Of a stretch of 64,000 nucleotides of DNA, positions 1,106-47,314 are shown piece after piece. A model generated the notes under the pieces. That model worked only from the letters and a program-made list of their open reading frames with translations, was not told the DNA's origin and did no database searches. This DNA comes from Oecophyllibacter saccharovorans (GTDB taxonomy: Bacteria; Pseudomonadota; Alphaproteobacteria; Acetobacterales; Acetobacteraceae). The position numbers and the translations under genes are program-made. The stretch covers positions 1,550,001 through 1,614,000 of the forward strand of contig NZ_CP038143.1 in assembly GCF_006542375.1 (NCBI RefSeq), read 5' to 3'. The stretch's first letter is position 1; every line of letters starts with the position of its first letter.

Positions 1106-1669
1106 ATGGTTGCCTTGCCACCTGTTGCCCCACTTCTGTTGTTTTTAGCGCTCTATGGCTTCTGTCGCGGCTATTTAAATCCTCTCATTAGAGGGATCAG
1201 TAAAAAAATTTACCAAAAAAATTTCCAGAATACCGCGGAATTTATTATGGGCGGGAATCCTCAGAAATTTAGAAGAAAGCTCAGAGCTGCAATCATTTTT
1301 GAGACAAATTCATCTGAATACAGCGGGATTTTAGAAGGAAATGTAACAAAGAAAGAAAAAACCGAGATTGGTGAAGAAATATTAATAGAGACTCTCGAAA
1401 AATACTCTAAAAATTTGTGCCGCTCGGGAAATTGGATAACCATAATTACAATTTCATTAACGGCTCAGTATTTTTCAACGAAAATTCCCTTTTTAAAATC
1501 TATATTGGAAGCTACGAAAATAATTGAAATTTCAACTTCTCTTCCAAGTAGTCCTCGAGCATTTTTGGTTTATTTTATTATTGGTTGTTTCGGCAGCATG
1601 CTTGGTGGGCTGATTCATCACAGGGGGGTACAGCTAAGAAGAGTGGCTCTGCTGAAGAGTCCATCGTAG
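1106..1669 (+). CDS. AT-rich hypothetical membrane protein
   Basis: 187 residues, no family recognised. Three hydrophobic segments are visible: about residues 5-22, 112-132 and 153-173. A basic, Lys/Asn-rich soluble stretch separates the first from the second. The ATG follows AAGGAG (1091-1096) with nine bases between, and an AT-rich TATATTATA stretch at 1074-1082 could be a promoter -10. Base composition is far more AT-rich than the flanking genes, and codon use (AAA, ATT, TTT) differs accordingly, which indicates transfer. It lies between paralogue B and a broken copy of paralogue B, so it sits where a third paralogue's 5' part was lost. Confidence 0.6.
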   Translation: MVALPPVAPLLLFLALYGFCRGYLNPLIRGISKKIYQKNFQNTAEFIMGGNPQKFRRKLRAAIIFETNSSEYSGILEGNVTKKEKTEIGEEILIETLEKYSKNLCRSGNWITIITISLTAQYFSTKIPFLKSILEATKIIEISTSLPSSPRAFLVYFIIGCFGSMLGGLIHHRGVQLRRVALLKSPS

Positions 1670-1712
1670 GCGGAAATTACCTAACAAACCGTCTTGCAGC
1701 TTTACAAGCTGA

Positions 1713-1895
1713 GCGACTACGGCGCCCCCTTTCCTGGTCCGTAGCACCCACCCGGCCCAACCCACCTACACCTTCTTCTGCGGCAACTGCAGCAACACGG
1801 AATCCTTCATGACCTCCCGCGTCTACGCCATCATGAAACAATGCGGCATGAGCCCGGACCACATCGAACTGAGCCACGAGGCGGCGGAGGGGTGA
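1713..1895 (+). pseudogene. Truncated third copy of the Cys-rich paralogue
   Basis: Positions 1733-1895 match 881-1043 (3' end of paralogue B) with six differences in 163 bases, including the shared stop codon. The frame is open only from 1713 and has no plausible start codon, so the N-terminal half with its CxxC motif is gone. The retained part keeps CGNC in place of CGKC and the C-terminal helix. The substitutions are mostly transitions and do not break the frame, so truncation is recent or the fragment exchanges with paralogue B by gene conversion. The missing 5' half coincides with the AT-rich gene just upstream. Confidence 0.75.
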
Positions 1896-2184
1896 AACAA
1901 TAGTCTTTAGGCCATGAAAAAGAAGAGGGATGGAAATAAACGCAAAATCTAGGTAGATTACTAAATCTGTCTGAATATTTTTTTAATTTTCCTATACGAA
2001 GACAGTTAGTGAATTAGTTTTCAGCCACCTGGGCCATCAGCTTAGCTTATAGAAAAGAGCAGATTTCTCAGGCCTTGAGCAGAAGGCACGACACCAAAAG
2101 CGTAGAAGTCAGCATCGAATTTCTATGGATTTGCATCGGGGCTTAACGTGTTATCAGCTGTTCAAGATACCATGAGGATATGCG
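1896..2184. other. AT-rich non-coding gap before the three-gene operon
   Basis: 289 bases with no credible gene: the longest frame starting with a good codon is a 12-codon one near 1914. It presumably holds the promoter of the operon that begins at 2185. A short inverted repeat TAAC-GT-GTTA lies at 2144-2153, about 30 bases before the start codon, and could be an operator for the XRE-type protein of the operon. That link is only a guess from position. Confidence 0.4.
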
Positions 2185-2763
2185 TTGACATTTATATCAA
2201 CAACTGAGAGGGTTCTTGAAGCTCTGAGGAAGAGCGGTAGATTCATGATAGTGGAGCCGTCTCAAACTATATTAAATCTTGCGTCTCAAGAAGGTTGGAC
2301 ACCAAGAGTCGTTCTTATTACGCCCGAATGCGATGAATGGATCATGCGGTTAAATGTTGATCCTGACAAACCCCCGCATCCGAAAAAATACTCAGGATTG
2401 AAGCCAAGAGAATTAGCTAATGGTTTTCTAGAACGATTAGCCGGTGGAGCAAAGGATGCTTATAATTTAAAAGCGCAGGAGGGCGGTTCGGGACCTTTTT
2501 TGCGTATCCGCGAGAGCCGGAAGTGGAAGTTAGCTGTTTATGAAGCACGTCTTTCCCATATCCGCTTATTCTGTCTCATTCCACAGCCAGGCATATTTTT
2601 GTTTGTGCTGGGTCAGTGGAATTGTCTTTTGCATGCCTCCAATCCTAAACCTGCGGAACATACTCATGAGGAATGTGCTAAAAAGGTAAAGGATTTCGCC
2701 TTACAACATCTTTCTCCTTTGGGTCTTCAATTTCCAGGATATAAAAATGATGAATTGCTATGA
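2185..2763 (+). CDS. Putative RelE/HigB-superfamily toxin-like protein
   Basis: 192 residues. The C-terminal half (about 105-178) follows the layout of RelE/HigB/Gp49-like toxins: a strand with basic residues (LRIRESRKWKLAVYEAR), two hydrophobic strands (IRLFCLI, IFLFVLGQW), then a charged helix (ECAKKVKDFAL). The N-terminal 80 residues are extra and unrecognised. If the assignment holds it would be an mRNA interferase; no catalytic set can be confirmed by eye. Start is TTG at 2185 with GAGGA (2174-2178) upstream; the ATGs at 2172 and 2180 run into stops at once. The 3' end overlaps the next gene, which encodes a helix-turn-helix protein, by 17 bases. That toxin-first order with an XRE partner is typical of HigBA. 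Strongly AT-rich, so probably acquired. Confidence 0.5.
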   Translation: MTFISTTERVLEALRKSGRFMIVEPSQTILNLASQEGWTPRVVLITPECDEWIMRLNVDPDKPPHPKKYSGLKPRELANGFLERLAGGAKDAYNLKAQEGGSGPFLRIRESRKWKLAVYEARLSHIRLFCLIPQPGIFLFVLGQWNCLLHASNPKPAEHTHEECAKKVKDFALQHLSPLGLQFPGYKNDELL

Positions 2764-3238
2764 TAATAATTCTCAGGCTGTCTGGAAAACAAAGGGTTTT
2801 CGGCGCCGTGTTCTGAGTCCAGAAGAAGAAGCCGAAGGGCGGAAAGCCTGGCTGTTTGCGCGTGTTAAAGGTTTAATTCGTGAGCGCATGAATGAGCTGG
2901 GAAAGAGCTTAGAAGAACTGGGGCAGCGTATGGGGGGGCGAAATAAGGCCAGTCTTTCCCGGTCTTTGAAAGCTGGTGCTGATATGCGTCTTTCCACTAT
3001 GTATGAGTTTGCTGAAGCTCTAGGTATGGAATGGCATCTGGAGCTGCGCGCAAGAGCACAGAAAAGAAGTTCAATTAATTTTGAGGCGCTTGATATTTAT
3101 CCAGCAGCTTTTTGGGCTTCGCAATTCGAACAAGATTCAATGCCAATATCTGAGGACGAATTACATCAGAGTTTAGCAAAAAATATGGATAATTTAAAAG
3201 AAAATCGAGTAAATCAGGAACGCGTCGATGCGCTCTGA
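2747..3238 (+). CDS. XRE-type helix-turn-helix protein, putative antitoxin
   Basis: 163 residues. Residues about 38-100 form a Cro/CI-like helix-turn-helix: a first helix (VKGLIRERMNELG), the HTH pair (SLEELGQRMG, then NKASLSRSLKAG) and a following helix ending in MEWHLELRA. It has a basic N-terminal arm (residues 14-22) and a C-terminal extension of about 60 polar residues that could bind and neutralise the upstream protein. It overlaps the upstream gene by 17 bases and the downstream gene by 11 bases, so the three are one translationally coupled unit. AGGAT precedes the ATG; a second ATG at 2750 is also possible. By analogy with HigA it would repress its own operon, which is inference. Confidence 0.65.
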   Translation: MMNCYDNNSQAVWKTKGFRRRVLSPEEEAEGRKAWLFARVKGLIRERMNELGKSLEELGQRMGGRNKASLSRSLKAGADMRLSTMYEFAEALGMEWHLELRARAQKRSSINFEALDIYPAAFWASQFEQDSMPISEDELHQSLAKNMDNLKENRVNQERVDAL

Positions 3239-3746
3239 AGAAGAATCTGGAAATTTTCCCAATTTCATTTTAGCTAATGCCTATATTTGTGATGCTGCAA
3301 CTTTTGGAAAAAACGTTGGCATCGCTGCTCTTGGCGTGACTACTGCCATAGTTAGTACATTACCGGGAAAATTTACTTCTCTTGCTTGTTTTGGGACGAT
3401 AGTTCATCAAGGTCATGAGCCTATTGAAGTGGAAATGTGCTTACGCATTTTGAAAAATGAAAAAGCTTATGGACTGACAAAGGTTCGTTTCGTTCCCACT
3501 GGTCCCATACCAGGCATGTTTGTGGTCACATTTTCTAGTCCGATAAATCTACCCCAACCTGGATTATATACAATTTGCTATCGAGTGGTTGGTATGAAAA
3601 ACTGGACTATTTGTGGAAATTTTAATCTGCTTCCACCACCGCCCAAGCCCCTAAACGAAACGATGCAGAAATTGCAAAAACTACGCACTGATCCGGATTT
3701 TATTGAGGCTTACAGACGCTTTGTCGCGGATTATTTGAATAAGTAG
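3228..3746 (+). CDS. DUF6941-like hypothetical protein, third gene of the operon
   Basis: 172 residues. The start (ILANAYICDAATFGKNVGI) and the later beta-rich pattern ending in a G-x-Y strand (QPGLYTICYRVVG) resemble DUF6941 proteins, whose function is not known to me. A Pro-rich linker (LLPPPPKP, about 137-144) separates this beta domain from a helical C-terminus (QKLQKLRTDPDFIEAYRRF). Neither signal peptide nor membrane segment is seen. The ATG lies inside the end of the XRE gene (11-base overlap), preceded by AGGAA, so it is made together with that protein. A beta-sandwich protein tied to a toxin-antitoxin-like pair may be a sensor, adaptor or second antitoxin. The family call is from pattern memory and is tentative. 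Confidence 0.5.
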   Translation: MRSEEESGNFPNFILANAYICDAATFGKNVGIAALGVTTAIVSTLPGKFTSLACFGTIVHQGHEPIEVEMCLRILKNEKAYGLTKVRFVPTGPIPGMFVVTFSSPINLPQPGLYTICYRVVGMKNWTICGNFNLLPPPPKPLNETMQKLQKLRTDPDFIEAYRRFVADYLNK

Positions 3747-5024: not shown

Positions 5025-5101
5025 TGGTGGACCCAGCAGGATTCGAACCTGCGACCTCTGCCTTCGGAGGGCAGCGCTCTATCCAGCTGAGCTATGAGTC
5101 C
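5025..5101 (-). tRNA. tRNA-Arg (anticodon CCG)
   Basis: The minus strand folds as a full tRNA. Acceptor arms GGACTCA and TGGGTCC pair with one G-T wobble. The anticodon stem is CTGCC/GGCAG with loop CTCCGAA (anticodon CCG, reading CGG). The T arm contains GGTTCGAATCC. The 3' CCA is encoded (5025-5027). It borders the accessory patch on its left, and tRNA genes often serve as integration sites, but no integrase gene or repeat of its 3' end was found in the window. Confidence 0.95.
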
Positions 5102-40741: not shown

Positions 40742-42592
40742 ATGGCATCCAGCCCCCCGACCGCCAAAGCCGTTTCCCAAGGCCCTTCCCAGGCCGCAAG
40801 CGGGGCGGGCGCGTGTCTCTTCAGCGGGATGCGCGCGCAGGTGGCAGCGATCATGGCAGAACTTTTCCCGGACCTGCCTGCCGAGACCCTGGCGCGCATC
40901 GAAGTCACCCCGACTCGCGACCCCGCCCATGGCGACATGGCAACCAACGCCGCCCTGCTGGCCGCCAAGCCCCTGCGCCGCAAACCCGCCGAAATCGCCG
41001 CCGCCCTGGTGGGCAGGCTGGCTGAGCTGCCGCAGGTGGAAAAGGCCGAAGTTGCGGGGCCGGGCTTCGTCAACCTCACCTTGCGCCCCCAGGTGCTGCA
41101 GGAGGTCGGCCGCATTGTGCTGCAGCAGGGCCCGCAGGCCTTCGGGCGCTCAGGGCTGGGGGCCGGCAAGCGGGTCAACATCGAATACGTCTCGGCCAAT
41201 CCCACAGGCCCGCTGCATGTCGGCCATTGCCGCGGGGCGGTGGTGGGCGACGCGCTGGCCAACCTGCTGGAAAAGGCGGGATATGAAGTCACGCGGGAAT
41301 ATTACGTCAATGATGCGGGCAACCAGGTCACTGCCCTGGCCTGGGCTGCCTATTGGCGCTACCTGCAGGCCATCGGCCGCCCGGTAGAGGCTGAAACCTT
41401 TGCACAGCTCGCCCCTTCAGGTCTGCAGTACCAGGGCGATTATCTCATCCCCGTGGGCCAGGCGCTGGCAGAGAAATACGGCGCCAGCCTGGCGCCAGAG
41501 AGCGGCAGCGTGGCCCCGGTCGAGCTCTGGTTTGACAAGGTGCGCGCGCTCACGCTCGCACACATGATGGCTGCTATCCGCGAAGACCTGGCGGCCCTGG
41601 GCATCACCCATGAAGTGTTCTCCAGCGAGGCCGAAGTACTGGCAAGCGGCGACGTGGACCGCGCCATCAGCGCGCTGGAAGGGGCAGGGCTGCTTTACGA
41701 AGGCGTGCTGGAGCCGCCCAAGGGCAAGCTGCCCGATGACTGGGAGGCCCGGCCGCAGACTCTGTTCCGTTCCACCGATTTCGGCGATGACACCGACCGC
41801 GCTCTGCGCAAGTCAGACGGCAGCAACACCTATTTTGCCAATGATGTCGGCTATCACGCCCGCAAGGCCCGCGGGGCGGACATGCTGATCGACGTTCTGG
41901 GCGCTGATCACGGCGGCTATGTTTCGCGCATGAAGGCTGCCGTCGCCGCGCTGACGCAGAACCATACCGAGTTCGACGTGCTGGTCTGCCAGATCGTGCG
42001 GATCATGAAGAACGGCCAGCCCGTGCGCATGTCCAAGCGGGCCGGCACGTTCGTGACCCTGCGCGACCTGCTTGACGAGGTCGGGCGTGACGCGGTGCGC
42101 TTTACCATGCTGACCCGCAAGGCCGATGCGCAGATGGATTTCGACCTCGACGCCGTGGTGGCGCAGACGCGTGACAACCCGGTTTTCTATGTCAATTACG
42201 CCCATGCCCGCTGCCGCTCGGTCCTGCGGCATGGCGCTGAGAAATACGGTGCGGACCAGGTGAGCGACAGCGCGCTGGCCGGCGCGGACCTCTCTGACCT
42301 CACCGCGCCTGAAGAGCTGGCAGTGCTGCGCCGCATCGCTGCCTTCCCCCGCCAGGTGGAGGCCGCAGCCCAGGCGCGCGAGCCCCACCGCATCGCGACC
42401 TACTGCATCGACCTGGCGGCAGACTTTCACGCGCTGTGGAACCGCGGGCGGGAAGAGGCGGCCCTGCGCTTCATCCAGGAGGACGCGCCCCAGGCCAGCA
42501 AGGCGCGCCTGGCTCTCGTGGCGGCAACGGCTGCCACGCTGCGGGCCGGGCTCGATATTCTCGGTGTTGAACCGGTAGAGGAAATGCGTTGA
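40742..42592 (+). CDS. argS: Arginyl-tRNA synthetase
   Basis: 616 residues. Class I enzyme with the N-terminal Add1 domain (about 35-120), the HIGH-type motif ANPTGPLHVGHCRGAVVGDAL, the KMSKS-like RMSKRAGTFVTLRDLL and a C-terminal helical anticodon-binding DALR domain (FYVNYAHARCRSVLR onward). AGGAGA lies 11 bases before the ATG. The first 25 residues are an Ala/Ser/Pro extension. The stop TGA shares its last base with the ATG of the SPOR gene, so argS, the SPOR gene and scpA form one coupled unit. Confidence 0.97.
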   Translation: MASSPPTAKAVSQGPSQAASGAGACLFSGMRAQVAAIMAELFPDLPAETLARIEVTPTRDPAHGDMATNAALLAAKPLRRKPAEIAAALVGRLAELPQVEKAEVAGPGFVNLTLRPQVLQEVGRIVLQQGPQAFGRSGLGAGKRVNIEYVSANPTGPLHVGHCRGAVVGDALANLLEKAGYEVTREYYVNDAGNQVTALAWAAYWRYLQAIGRPVEAETFAQLAPSGLQYQGDYLIPVGQALAEKYGASLAPESGSVAPVELWFDKVRALTLAHMMAAIREDLAALGITHEVFSSEAEVLASGDVDRAISALEGAGLLYEGVLEPPKGKLPDDWEARPQTLFRSTDFGDDTDRALRKSDGSNTYFANDVGYHARKARGADMLIDVLGADHGGYVSRMKAAVAALTQNHTEFDVLVCQIVRIMKNGQPVRMSKRAGTFVTLRDLLDEVGRDAVRFTMLTRKADAQMDFDLDAVVAQTRDNPVFYVNYAHARCRSVLRHGAEKYGADQVSDSALAGADLSDLTAPEELAVLRRIAAFPRQVEAAAQAREPHRIATYCIDLAADFHALWNRGREEAALRFIQEDAPQASKARLALVAATAATLRAGLDILGVEPVEEMR

Positions 42593-43998
42593 TGAACGGC
42601 TCTGACAACATCCCCCCCGATCCCCGCGCGCGCGACCACCGCGGCAACCGCATCAACCCGGCCGGCCGCTACGCCGGCGGCGCGCCTGGGGGGCAACCCC
42701 AGAATCCGCCGCCCGGCCCCGGCCCGGCCGCGCCGCAGCAGGGCAGGCTCTATGCCGATGGCCCCCAGCGCCTGGCCCCGGGCCAGCGCGGCCCCCAAAG
42801 CGCCCGGCAGGACTACCAGCAGGAGGGGCCCCAGGGTTACGGGGAGCCCGGTTATGTCGAGCCCGGCTACCAGGACCAGGATTTCAATGCCACCGGCCAG
42901 CGCGCGCGTGAGCGGCTGAACGGCCGCCCCCCGCGCAACGGCCGCGGGGGCGGCGGGTCGGGCGGGGTGCTCGGCTCGATGCTGGGCCAGGACCCAGGCA
43001 CCCGCAAGCTGGTGGGCGGTGCGGCGATCATCGTCGTGCTGCTGGGCGCCACAGTGGGGGGCTGGGCATTGTTCGGCAGCCATCATGAAGGCGTGCCGGT
43101 GATCGGCCCGCCGATGATGGCGCTTAAGGATCGCCCCGCTGACCCGGGCGGCCTGCAGGTCATGCGTGATGACACCGCCCAGAGCGACGTGACGGGCAAG
43201 GGGGCCTTGCACCTGGCCCCGCTGCCCGAGCAGCCGGACGCCCAGGCCCTGGCCCGCGAGGCCGCCGCCCGCCAGCAGCCCCAGCCCCCCCCGATCACAC
43301 CGGCAAGCGACACGCCTGCTGCCACAACCCCCCCAGCTCAGCCCGAGACGCTGCCAGCCCAGCCTGCGCCCGCAACCACGCAGGCGCCTGAGAAAGCGGC
43401 CGCTGAAACCCAGCCTGCCTCTGCGCCCGACCAGGCAGAGCATGAGGGGGCAGAGGCCGAAGCGCGCGAGCGTGCCCGCCAGGCCGAGGAACAGCGCCAG
43501 GCTGCCCGCCAGGCGCAGGAGGAAGCGGCCCAGAAACGCGCCGCCGCCCGCAAGGCAGCGCAGGAAGCCGCTGCCGAGAAACGCGCTGCCGCCCGCAAGG
43601 CCGCCCAGGAGGCCGCCGCCAAAGCCGACAAAGCTGACAAAACGGACGCCGCCACCCTGCCGCCGCCCTCAACCACACCGGCCAGCAAGCCTGCCGCCAA
43701 GACCCCTGCCAGCGCAGACGCCCCCAGCGCCAGTGCCGCTCCGGCTGGCAGCGGGCATTACGCCGTGCAGCTGGGCGCGCTTGACAGCCCGGCCCTGGCG
43801 CGCAAGGCGTGGGAAGCCAGCAAGGGCAAGGCGCCTGACCTTCTGGGCGGCCACACCCCGCTTTACTCGCAGGTCACGCGCAACGGGCGCAGCTACGTGC
43901 GGCTGCGGGTGGGCGGTTTTGCTGACATGAAGGCAGCGCGCCTGTTCTGCGCCAAGCTGCATGCGGCTTCCGTCAACTGTGCGCCAGCCGCTTTCTGA
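42592..43998 (+). CDS. SPOR-domain membrane protein
   Basis: 468 residues. A Gly/Pro/Gln/Arg-rich cytoplasmic part (about 1-137), a single membrane helix (about 138-160, GGAAIIVVLLGATVGGWALF), a long Pro/Ala/Gln periplasmic linker, an Ala/Lys/Arg helical stretch (about 290-350) with a 15-residue tandem duplication (43534-43623), and a C-terminal SPOR domain (about 387-468: GHYAVQLGAL through VRLRVGGFADMKAARLFCAKL). SPOR domains bind stripped septal peptidoglycan, so it should act at division sites. Overlaps argS by one base and the proposed scpA start by four. Confidence 0.9.
   Translation: MNGSDNIPPDPRARDHRGNRINPAGRYAGGAPGGQPQNPPPGPGPAAPQQGRLYADGPQRLAPGQRGPQSARQDYQQEGPQGYGEPGYVEPGYQDQDFNATGQRARERLNGRPPRNGRGGGGSGGVLGSMLGQDPGTRKLVGGAAIIVVLLGATVGGWALFGSHHEGVPVIGPPMMALKDRPADPGGLQVMRDDTAQSDVTGKGALHLAPLPEQPDAQALAREAAARQQPQPPPITPASDTPAATTPPAQPETLPAQPAPATTQAPEKAAAETQPASAPDQAEHEGAEAEARERARQAEEQRQAARQAQEEAAQKRAAARKAAQEAAAEKRAAARKAAQEAAAKADKADKTDAATLPPPSTTPASKPAAKTPASADAPSASAAPAGSGHYAVQLGALDSPALARKAWEASKGKAPDLLGGHTPLYSQVTRNGRSYVRLRVGGFADMKAARLFCAKLHAASVNCAPAAF
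43534..43623 (+). repeat. 45-bp tandem duplication in the SPOR gene
   Basis: Two 15-codon units encode KRAAARKAAQEAAAE and KRAAARKAAQEAAAK. Synonymous differences have accumulated between them, so the duplication is old and kept in frame. It lengthens an Ala/Lys/Arg helix between the membrane anchor and the SPOR domain. Confidence 0.8.
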
Positions 43999-44780
43999 CC
44001 GCGCAGCTTCAGCTCCGGCTGGAAGGCTTCGAGGGCCCGCTTGACCTCCTGCTGGAGCTGGCGCGCACCCAGAAGGTGGACCTGCAGTCGCTCTCGCTGC
44101 TGCAGCTCGCCCAGCAATATCTGGACTTCATCGCCCAGGCCCGCCACCTGCAGCTTGAACTGGCTGCAGACTGGCTGGTCATGGCCGCCTGGCTGACCTG
44201 GCTCAAGTCACGCCTCCTGCTGCCCCAGCCCGAAAGCGACGCTGACGCCGAGCTTGAGGAAGCCTCAGACCAGCTCCAGGCCCGCCTGGCTGAGCTTGCC
44301 CGCGTGCAGGCCGCAACCGCCTGGCTCCAGGCACGGCCCCGGCTTGGGCGCGACGTGTTCGCGCGCGCAGAGACCGAGGATCATACGGTCCGCACAGCCG
44401 GCCCGCTTGAAGGCGATGTCACCCGGCTGGTGAGCGCCTATCTCACCGCCCGCCGCCGTTCAGCACGCCAGCGGCACTACCGCCCGCCGCCCGTGCGTTA
44501 CTGGACCGTGCAGCAGGCCCGCACCACCCTGATGCGCCTGCTGGGCGCGCGCGCCCTGCAGGGCGGCGCCGGCGGCGGATGGCACAACCTGCTCGCCCTC
44601 CTGCCGGAGCTGATCCCTGCGTCTTCGCAAGCACCGTCGTCGGCTCCCCTGCAGGCCCGCGCCGCCCAGGCGGCTTTGCTGGTGGCCGGGCTCGAGCTTG
44701 CCAAAAGCGGCACGCTCGAGCTGCGCCAGCCCGCGGAATTCGCCCCCATCGCCTGGCGCCCGGCCCCCACGCCCGACTGA
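43995..44780 (+). CDS. scpA: Segregation and condensation protein A, probable CTG start
   Basis: 261 residues if begun at CTG 43995. The conserved ScpA N-terminus (LRLEGFEGPLDLLLELARTQKVDL) is encoded from about 44013. No ATG, GTG or TTG precedes it in frame back to a stop at 43923; the first such codon (GTG 44076) would cut through the conserved helix. CTG 43995 overlaps the SPOR stop as CTGA, a variant of the common ATGA coupling, so it is the best start. ScpA is the kleisin that bridges the Smc heads; the N-terminal helix pairs with Smc, and the C-terminal winged helix (about 200-261) is present. scpB is 1.8 kb away, beyond an unrelated gene. A terminator follows. Confidence 0.85.
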   Translation: MTAQLQLRLEGFEGPLDLLLELARTQKVDLQSLSLLQLAQQYLDFIAQARHLQLELAADWLVMAAWLTWLKSRLLLPQPESDADAELEEASDQLQARLAELARVQAATAWLQARPRLGRDVFARAETEDHTVRTAGPLEGDVTRLVSAYLTARRRSARQRHYRPPPVRYWTVQQARTTLMRLLGARALQGGAGGGWHNLLALLPELIPASSQAPSSAPLQARAAQAALLVAGLELAKSGTLELRQPAEFAPIAWRPAPTPD

Positions 44781-44888: not shown

Positions 44889-46085
44889 TTACAATGCGCT
44901 CCACAGACCGTCGGGCCCGTAGACCTGCTGGGCCCAGTCCGCGCCCTCATGCACGTCCACCAGCTCGCCGTTATTGCCCGCGCTGCGGACGATGGCGCTG
45001 ATGATCTGCACGTCGCGCCGGCCTTCCTGCCAGGTGGCGGCAGAAGGCTTGCCCGAGGCGATGGAGGCGGGCAGGGCGTCCAGCTGGTGGCCCCACTGGG
45101 TGGCGGTGAACTTCTGGAAGTAGGGCTGCTGGAAGATGTGGTCGTTGCCGTGGCCGTTGCTGAACAGGCGGGCCTGGTTGTTGTAGTAGGAGCTGCCCGG
45201 CTGGATCTCGACATAGTTCTTGTCGCCGATGACCGCAAAGCGGTTGCAGCCCGCGCTGCCGAAGGAGGAAGCGCCCTCGGCCACCGCGCCATTGGCGTAA
45301 TACAGCGTCCAGCTCATCGCGCCGTCCACGTCATTGACATGCATGATCTCATGGGCGCGCACGGCGATGGGGTCCTGGTTGGAGAGGTAGCGGCTGGCAT
45401 TGATGCCGTAGATGCCGAGATCTCCCAGCGAGCCGGAACCGGCCATGGCGCGGTTCAGGCGCCATTTCAGGTAGGGCAGGTCGCGGTCGGGCAGCTGGTT
45501 TTCCAGGTTGGCGGTCTGGATGAGCTGCAGCTTGCCGACCTGGCCCGCCTTGAGCTGGGCGATGACGTCGCGCGTCATGGGGTCGAAATGCACGCGGTAG
45601 CCGATCATCAGCTGCTTGCCGGCCTTCTTGGCGGCAGCGGCCATGGCGTCGCAGTCTTCCACGGTGGTGGCCATCGGCTTTTCGCACATCACGTGCTTGC
45701 CTGCGGCAAACGCAGCCTCGGTGAAGTGGCGGTGGGTGGCATTGGGGGTGATGACATACACGGCGTCAATGGCCGGGTTGCGGGCGATGGCAGCCCAGTC
45801 CTTGTAGGTATAGGCGCTGTTGGGGCCCAGCTTGTATTTGCGGGCGTAGAACTCGGCCTTGGCCTTGTCGCCCGAGATGACCGCAACCAGCTCGGAATTC
45901 TCGGCCGTGCTGAAATTGGGGAGGATGACCTCGGTTGCGTATTTGCCCAGGCCCAGCACCGCATAGCCGAACTTGCGCTTGCCGTTGGCCGGCCGGCCGG
46001 ACTGGGCGAAGGCCGACATAGCGGGCGTTGCGGCCATTGCCGCGGCACCGAGGCTGGCGACCTTGAAGAAATCTCTGCGTTCCAT
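44889..46085 (-). CDS. Gfo/Idh/MocA oxidoreductase, glucose-fructose oxidoreductase-like, Tat-exported
   Basis: 398 residues. The N-terminus MERRDFFKVASLGAAAMAA is a Tat signal (RRxFFK) with a predicted cut near FAQS (about 28). The Rossmann domain has GYAVLGLGKYATEVILPNF, then the hallmark GKHVMCEKPMATTVEDC and LMIGYRVHFDPM. The C-terminal sheet includes WRLNRAMAGSGSLGDLGIYGINASRYL. This pattern follows Zymomonas periplasmic GFOR, which turns glucose and fructose into gluconolactone and sorbitol using tightly bound NADP. The substrate here is inferred. The gene interrupts the usual scpA-scpB order. Its export fits the tatB and tatC genes nearby. Confidence 0.85.
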   Translation of the reverse strand: MERRDFFKVASLGAAAMAATPAMSAFAQSGRPANGKRKFGYAVLGLGKYATEVILPNFSTAENSELVAVISGDKAKAEFYARKYKLGPNSAYTYKDWAAIARNPAIDAVYVITPNATHRHFTEAAFAAGKHVMCEKPMATTVEDCDAMAAAAKKAGKQLMIGYRVHFDPMTRDVIAQLKAGQVGKLQLIQTANLENQLPDRDLPYLKWRLNRAMAGSGSLGDLGIYGINASRYLSNQDPIAVRAHEIMHVNDVDGAMSWTLYYANGAVAEGASSFGSAGCNRFAVIGDKNYVEIQPGSSYYNNQARLFSNGHGNDHIFQQPYFQKFTATQWGHQLDALPASIASGKPSAATWQEGRRDVQIISAIVRSAGNNGELVDVHEGADWAQQVYGPDGLWSAL

Positions 46086-46561: not shown

Positions 46562-47314
46562 ATGCAGCCTTCAGCAAGGCCCCGCTCTGAAGCAGACCCC
46601 GCAACCCCCAGTCCCGCGCACCCAACAGCGCCAGGGGTGCGGGCGGAAGCGGTCAAGCTGGCTGAAGCCCTGCTCTTTGCCAGTGCAGGCCCTGTTGCGC
46701 GCCAGGCGCTGGCTGAGTTCCTGGCCGGGCGCGGCTTTGCGCGCGAGGCCGAAGGGCTTGAAGAGGTGATCGCAGCCCTGGAGGGGCTTTACGCAGGCCA
46801 TGCGGTGGGGGTGGTGGCGGTTGCAGGCGGCTGGCAGCTGCGCACGCGCCCCGATTACGGCCCCGCCCTGGCCCGCGTGGTGGAAAAGCCGCGCCGTCTG
46901 GGCCGCGCAGCCATGGAAACCCTGGCCGTGGTCGCGTATCATCAGCCCTGCACGCGCGCCGAGATCGAGGCCATACGCGGCGTCAGCCTCGGCCAGGGCG
47001 TGCTTGAGCCCCTGCTGGAGGAAGGCCTGCTGGCCCCGCGCGGGCGCAGGGAAGTGCCGGGCCGCCCGGTGCAGTGGGGCACCACGCCTGCCTTTCTGCG
47101 CCTGTTCGGCCTCAACCGCCTGGCCGACCTGCCGGCCAGGGGGGAGCTGATGCTCGACCCCCAGCCGACCGGCCCCGCTGATCCGGAGCCAGCGCCGGAG
47201 CCAGCGCCGGAGCCGGAGTCAGAGGGCGGCGCGCCGGGGGAGGCCGCAGAGAAACAAGCCACCCGCACCGGGGCACGGAGCGGGAAGAAGGGAGACGGGG
47301 AGAGGGATGTTTGA
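46562..47314 (+). CDS. scpB: Segregation and condensation protein B
   Basis: 250 residues. Two winged-helix domains (about 28-110 and 115-185) with the family block RLGRAAMETLAVVAYHQPCTRAEIEAIRGV and GRPVQWGTTPAFLRLFGL. A C-terminal disordered tail is rich in Pro/Glu repeats (PEPAPEPAPEPE) and Gly/Lys. ScpB dimers bind ScpA in the Smc condensin complex. The start is uncertain because the first 25 residues are Pro-rich and no Shine-Dalgarno is clear. Its 3' end overlaps tatB by eight bases. Confidence 0.9.
   Translation: MQPSARPRSEADPATPSPAHPTAPGVRAEAVKLAEALLFASAGPVARQALAEFLAGRGFAREAEGLEEVIAALEGLYAGHAVGVVAVAGGWQLRTRPDYGPALARVVEKPRRLGRAAMETLAVVAYHQPCTRAEIEAIRGVSLGQGVLEPLLEEGLLAPRGRREVPGRPVQWGTTPAFLRLFGLNRLADLPARGELMLDPQPTGPADPEPAPEPAPEPESEGGAPGEAAEKQATRTGARSGKKGDGERDV

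Follow-up and report, generated by a model that had tools for sequence, protein, structure and literature searches.

At which codon does translation of scpA, the gene for the kleisin subunit of Smc-ScpAB, begin in Oecophyllibacter saccharovorans, where the conserved N-terminus of the protein is encoded ahead of the first ATG, GTG or TTG (hereafter canonical) codon in frame? The question was examined in a stretch of 64,000 nucleotides (the window, to which all plain coordinates refer), for which a first-pass annotation had placed the start at a CTG overlapping the stop codon of the preceding gene. From the comparisons described below, scpA in this acetic acid bacterium very probably starts at that CTG. 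This reading, with reinitiation on CUG and an origin of the junction by deletion as its inferred parts, was given a probability of roughly 0.83; the observation itself and its interpretation as a start are well supported.

The junction of the SPOR gene and scpA

The gene lies in a chain of argS, a gene for a SPOR-domain protein and scpA (Table 1), in which the argS stop overlaps the SPOR start (TTGATG, 42589-42594). The SPOR protein is weakly FtsN-like (NF050813, E 1.7e-14, 54.7 bits, against a cut-off of 300). Positions 43995-43998 read CTGA, and CTG 43995-43997 shares bases with the SPOR stop TGA 43996-43998, giving a start-stop overlap of 4 nt of the NTGA type. The SPOR gene ends GCC GCT TTC TGA, which is TTT CTG ACC GCG CAG CTT in the scpA frame, and the first base of the CTG also serves as the third (wobble) position of the last SPOR codon, Phe. 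An in-frame TGA at 43923 precedes the scpA frame, which opens at 43926 and up to GTG 44076 contains no ATG, GTG, TTG, ATT, ATC or ATA; its in-frame CTG codons include 43947, 43977, 43995 and 44019. As a measure of chance, 1.4% of the codons are CTG when 34 window genes are read in the corresponding (-1) frame.

Translation from CTG 43995 gave 261 residues with the N-terminus LTAQLQLRLEGFEGPLDLLLELARTQKVDL, in which the motif FEGPLDLLL is present and GTG 44076 encodes residue 28. In known complexes the residues around this motif bind Smc. Gene calling restricted to canonical codons would begin at GTG 44076 and delete residues 1-27 together with the motif. The sequence and the ORF ends thus agreed with the first-pass annotation in its placing of the CTG on the SPOR stop, in the absence of a canonical codon back to the preceding stop, in the position of the kleisin N-terminus upstream of the first such codon and in its warning that automated annotation would clip the protein.

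The scpA product matched PF02616 (SMC_ScpA) above the cut-off, and the NCBIfam ScpA models matched below their own cut-offs. The first position of one of these, NF000995, fell exactly on CTG 43995, and three others extrapolated to 1, 2 and 4 codons downstream of it. Alignments with the solved ScpA chains 3w6j and 3zgx began at residues 6 and 4 respectively, and both chains contain a FEGPLD-type motif. Matches to the ScpA protein were found in 46 of the 60 genomes searched, own included; the named ScpA relatives are Acetobacteraceae. In this genome of 1.94 Mb scpA is intact and the partner gene scpB is present.

Table 1. Features around the scpA junction (window coordinates)
Feature	Position	Strand	Basis
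argS, arginine-tRNA ligase, first gene of the chain	40742..42592	+	ORF; NCBIfam TIGR00456, E 1.8e-106
SPOR-domain protein, weakly FtsN-like, last codon TTC (Phe) then TGA	42589..43998	+	Pfam SPOR PF05036, E 4e-11
No clear Shine-Dalgarno in the initiation region (duplex -1.5 kcal/mol)	43965..44030	+	predicted hairpin covers CTG
CTGA junction, CTG of scpA on TGA of the SPOR gene	43995..43998	+	sequence; homologous GTG/TTG/ATG starts in relatives
scpA, kleisin of Smc-ScpAB, 261 aa as read from CTG	43995..44780	+	PF02616, E 1.6e-12
First canonical codon in the scpA frame (GTG)	44076..44078	+	ORF listing, frame scan
GFO/IDH/MocA oxidoreductase gene between scpA and scpB	44889..46085	-	ORF, profile match
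scpB, partner subunit	46562..47314	+	ORF; PF04079, E 1.5e-44 at 46661-47137; TIGR00281

Start codons in relatives and in the rest of the genome

A set of 136 scpA loci (128 distinct over 240 nt), taken from the matches listed (the best 30, the best 80 and 26 more from another best 30), was anchored on the FEGPLD-type motif, and in each locus the in-frame canonical candidates were listed back to the preceding stop. The motif, with variants, was found in 136/136 of these listed matches, one of the search patterns used to gather them being the motif itself. Among the same listed matches a canonical candidate preceded the motif in all 135 other loci, and the window's own locus was the only one (1/136) without a canonical codon between the preceding stop and the motif. 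None of the others therefore has to be started from a point as far into the gene as GTG 44076 of the window, the position at which starts in relatives had been named by the first-pass annotation as evidence against the CTG. The listing does not prove the start of each relative, because several candidates are available in many of the long open frames.

The codon 11 positions before FEGPLD, which is CTG here, was canonical in 34 of the 128 distinct loci listed (22 GTG, 9 TTG, 3 ATG): GTG in Bombella and Saccharibacter, TTG in Gluconobacter and ATG in Neoroseomonas. Four Neoroseomonas/Roseomonas loci among the matches listed carry an overlap at the same site, ATGA in three and GTGA in one; the resemblance to ATGA junctions noted at first sight, and the suggestion that ATGA be sought at this junction in related genomes, were thereby upheld, site and 4-nt geometry being the same in Neoroseomonas scpA. 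Judged from these alignments, CTG 43995 is homologous to the putative GTG, TTG and ATG start codons of the relatives.

A tree of 127 distinct ScpA proteins, rough because its bootstrap was still unsettled and the row of the window formed a long branch, placed this row with Bombella and Saccharibacter, sister to Gluconobacter/Neokomagataea (support 82/99 and 81/95). Codon -11 was the most upstream candidate at a distance of at least 10 codons in 18 of the 127 proteins (9 GTG, 8 TTG, 1 ATG), and these cases tell most about the start. All 20 neighbouring rows had a candidate at the site, namely GTG at -11 (9 rows), TTG at -11 (9 rows) or TTG at -12 (2 rows, Neokomagataea), and three of them (L033, L048, L050) carry an additional ATG at -27.

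Starts of other genes in the same genome were examined in two overlapping samples. The first consisted of 35 window proteins (34 of the 59 listed ORFs and the oxidoreductase), of which 32 matched NCBIfam models, 31 of these (all except the oxidoreductase) having been supplied stop to stop. By eye, a match beginning before the first canonical start was found for scpA only among these 31 genes; matches beginning deep in the protein (the SPOR gene, a helicase-like gene) are uninformative on the start. The second sample consisted of 88 conserved genes (40 from the window and 48 from elsewhere in the genome, in ten stretches of 20 kb), set against 571 kb of G032, a genome grouped with Bombella by its ScpA, and against the scpA loci of relatives. 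Ten rows were flagged, and at least 10 identical residues upstream of the first canonical start were found only in scpA (19 of 23), glyS (12 of 17) and a phosphatase-like gene (13 of 23). The glyS flag was read as a probable out-of-frame reading of the overlapping glyQ end.

Relaxed initiation throughout the genome was considered and rejected: since scpA is the only convincing CTG start among the 88 genes sampled, it is taken as an isolated event and not as the sign of a relaxed code. An unusual initiator tRNA or 16S rRNA was also considered. Neither the initiator anticodon patterns nor a 16S gene turned up in this genome, where contig C2 is all N and such an absence is uninformative; the 16S search also missed 5 of 14 control genomes. 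The initiator tRNA pattern was found in 3/3 relatives, and an AGG/CCT stem in the tRNAs of G032, G234 and G273.

Three further observations were made along the way. In the phosphatase-like gene (G000:C1:70608-71354 of the own genome, L146:10608-11354), 77% identical to its G032 relative, the conserved N-terminus precedes the first canonical codon, and either a candidate ATT start at G000:C1:70632 or an indel may be present. No ATG precedes the conserved N-terminus of infC (own genome, L138:2032-2034, minus strand), which may start at an ATA that has GGAGAG before it and ARPPFPAAPTREGPRVNEE behind it; six codons further 5' the frame contains a GTG. At window positions 1106-3746, near a tRNA-Arg (5025-5101), four ORFs have a third-position G+C of 0.32-0.37, as against about 0.8-0.9 for conserved window genes, and may form a recently acquired island.

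Alternative readings of the junction

The alternative that survives best, improbable though it is, is a sequencing or strain artefact in which position 43995 is really a T and the junction TTGA, so that scpA would start at TTG. The Phe at the SPOR end is kept with C or T only at this position, and protein conservation cannot detect a T because TTT and TTC both encode Phe, so that the change is silent for the SPOR protein. The Gluconobacter loci carry TTG at the homologous codon, the Neokomagataea SPOR gene ends TTT-TGA, and the CTG was read in a single genome of its genus. On the other side, C is the base expected, since 34 window genes use TTC for 367 of their 471 Phe residues, and the SPOR gene also ends TTC-TGA, with CTGA as in the window, in Gluconobacter and Asaia. 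The SPOR end is TTT-TAG in Saccharibacter and AAC-TGA, AAC-TAA or (L002) AAT-TGA in Bombella. An indel at the junction is unlikely because the tail CAPAAF* aligns to its last residue with CTPAQF* of Gluconobacter; of 53 distinct SPOR tails, counting the window's own, 28 have a terminal Phe.

Initiation at GTG 44076, with a ScpA shorter by 27 residues, is very unlikely. It is the first canonical codon in frame and the choice of callers restricted to such codons, and one secondary scpA-like match (G016:C1:393936) begins at query residue 29; against it, the product would lack the motif common to every listed locus and to both solved chains, the other loci listed all have a candidate before that motif, and the Shine-Dalgarno signal at the GTG is weak (-3.6). 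As little can be said for a start further upstream, at CTG 43977, CTG 43947 or some other unusual codon, with a longer N-terminus: the frame would allow it, being open from 43926 with these two further CTG codons, but both lie inside the SPOR gene, and the extra residues are absent from Bombella, where the scpA frame is open for just 14-17 codons before the motif.

A programmed -1 frameshift at the SPOR stop, yielding a SPOR-ScpA fusion, was ruled out as extremely unlikely: scpA does lie in the -1 frame there and a slip of the Phe tRNA from TTC to TTT might be conceived, but no X-XXY-YYZ slippery heptamer was seen by eye before the stop, a spacer parts the two genes in Gluconobacter and Bombella, and the site of action is the cell envelope for SPOR proteins and DNA for ScpA.

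Probable initiation at the CTG, its proposed origin and known systems

The 21 bases 5' of the CTG pair weakly with the anti-Shine-Dalgarno sequence (-1.5 kcal/mol; -1.5 to -11.4 kcal/mol in 34 relatives with a start codon at this site), and because a Shine-Dalgarno signal is almost absent, termination-reinitiation is the likely route. Ribosomes ending the SPOR gene at UGA would move back a little and begin again at the overlapping CUG with initiator tRNA, which would give a low output of ScpA tied to SPOR translation; that a low output suits a scarce protein is speculation. An unusually strong RNA structure at the CTG was considered and rejected (predicted hairpin against shuffles, z -0.36). 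The genome encodes IF3 (PF00707, E 2.6e-36).

In published work, the NTGA (-4 nt) arrangement is the commonest spacing of neighbouring genes (PMC12548453), and translational coupling requires an overlap or a very short distance, dropping sharply as the distance grows (PMC10666635). CUG is described as a poor initiator, its initiation complexes being less stable than those on AUG, GUG or UUG (PMC11497404); CTG was not enriched in start-codon selection in mycobacteria (0.03%; PMC4633059), and reconstructed switches to CUG were very rare, at 2 of 61,358 AUG, 1 of 5,080 GUG and 1 of 2,468 UUG codons (PMC5622118).

Loss of an intergenic spacer, rather than a base change in an existing start codon, probably produced the CTG. 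Counted from the F of FEGPLD, the SPOR stop stands at -55 in L002 and L035, the two Bombella-group loci in which it was placed, at -46 in the Gluconobacter loci and at -32 here, and the spacer is therefore gone in the window. The junction of Gluconobacter L033 reads TTC-TGA-GAGACCGGGC-TTG-AGC, and removal between its two TGA copies leaves TTC-TGA-GC, which is CTG-AGC in the scpA frame. We infer that a deletion of this kind occurred in the window lineage. The ancestral SPOR gene would have had a last codon ending in C followed by TGA, and the ancestral scpA a start NTG-A; loss of the DNA from one TGA copy to the other would have taken out the spacer and the old start, and scpA would have acquired the C of the last SPOR codon, so that a CTG already present at the SPOR end would have come to serve as the start. 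How the ancestral junction read is uncertain, because the closest relatives, Saccharibacter and Bombella, differ at the SPOR end. Loss of nagZ was rejected as a cause, since the SPOR gene lies directly 5' of scpA in the Bombella-group and Gluconobacter loci too; no glycoside hydrolase 3 (nagZ-type) match was found in the genome as searched, with contig C2 masked.

In a bolder extension of this model, the last base of the upstream gene would pass to the fused start, and kleisin synthesis would become a by-product of translating an FtsN-like division protein. Many CTGA starts might then be hidden in GC-rich genomes, because gene finders usually disallow CTG. Taken together, the extension that CTG starts commonly arise when DNA is lost from a TGA stop to an NTGA start, that condensin dose follows translation of the FtsN-like gene under an IF3 throttle, and that further CTGA starts lie hidden in GC-rich genomes is unlikely. 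More cases might be found by searching for CTGA junctions with conserved sequence before the first canonical codon. The junction also offers a clean test of whether CUG is tolerated better by termination-reinitiation than by new initiation.

Searching the open-licence literature for ScpA starts gave only unrelated work, and the titles found on CUG/CTG starts and overlaps were without scpA. Natural bacterial CUG starts have rarely been documented, and here a probable one falls in a conserved core gene bracketed by relatives. Known in kind and uncommon in instance, it is well supported but a modest curiosity and an annotation trap, because CUG starts and NTGA coupling were both already known.

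As in the NTGA (-4 nt) coupled pairs of PMC12548453, two bases are common to the probable start of scpA and the SPOR stop; it differs from the usual pairs in that N is C and the codon falls outside ATG, GTG and TTG. Non-canonical starts repressed by IF3 are described in PMC5472188 for infC (ATT in E. coli, ATC in Streptomyces) and Streptomyces sigR (GTC); these genes and scpA would share a natural start outside the canonical codons that is easily missed by gene prediction, whereas sigR has a very extensive ribosome site and the CTG of scpA lies in an overlap with no clear Shine-Dalgarno. The rare CUG starts reconstructed in PMC5622118 resemble the probable one of scpA in that CUG replaces the canonical start of an orthologue. 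Those CUGs were counted as codon switches between closely related genomes, whereas at scpA a deletion at the junction likely moved an existing CTG into place.
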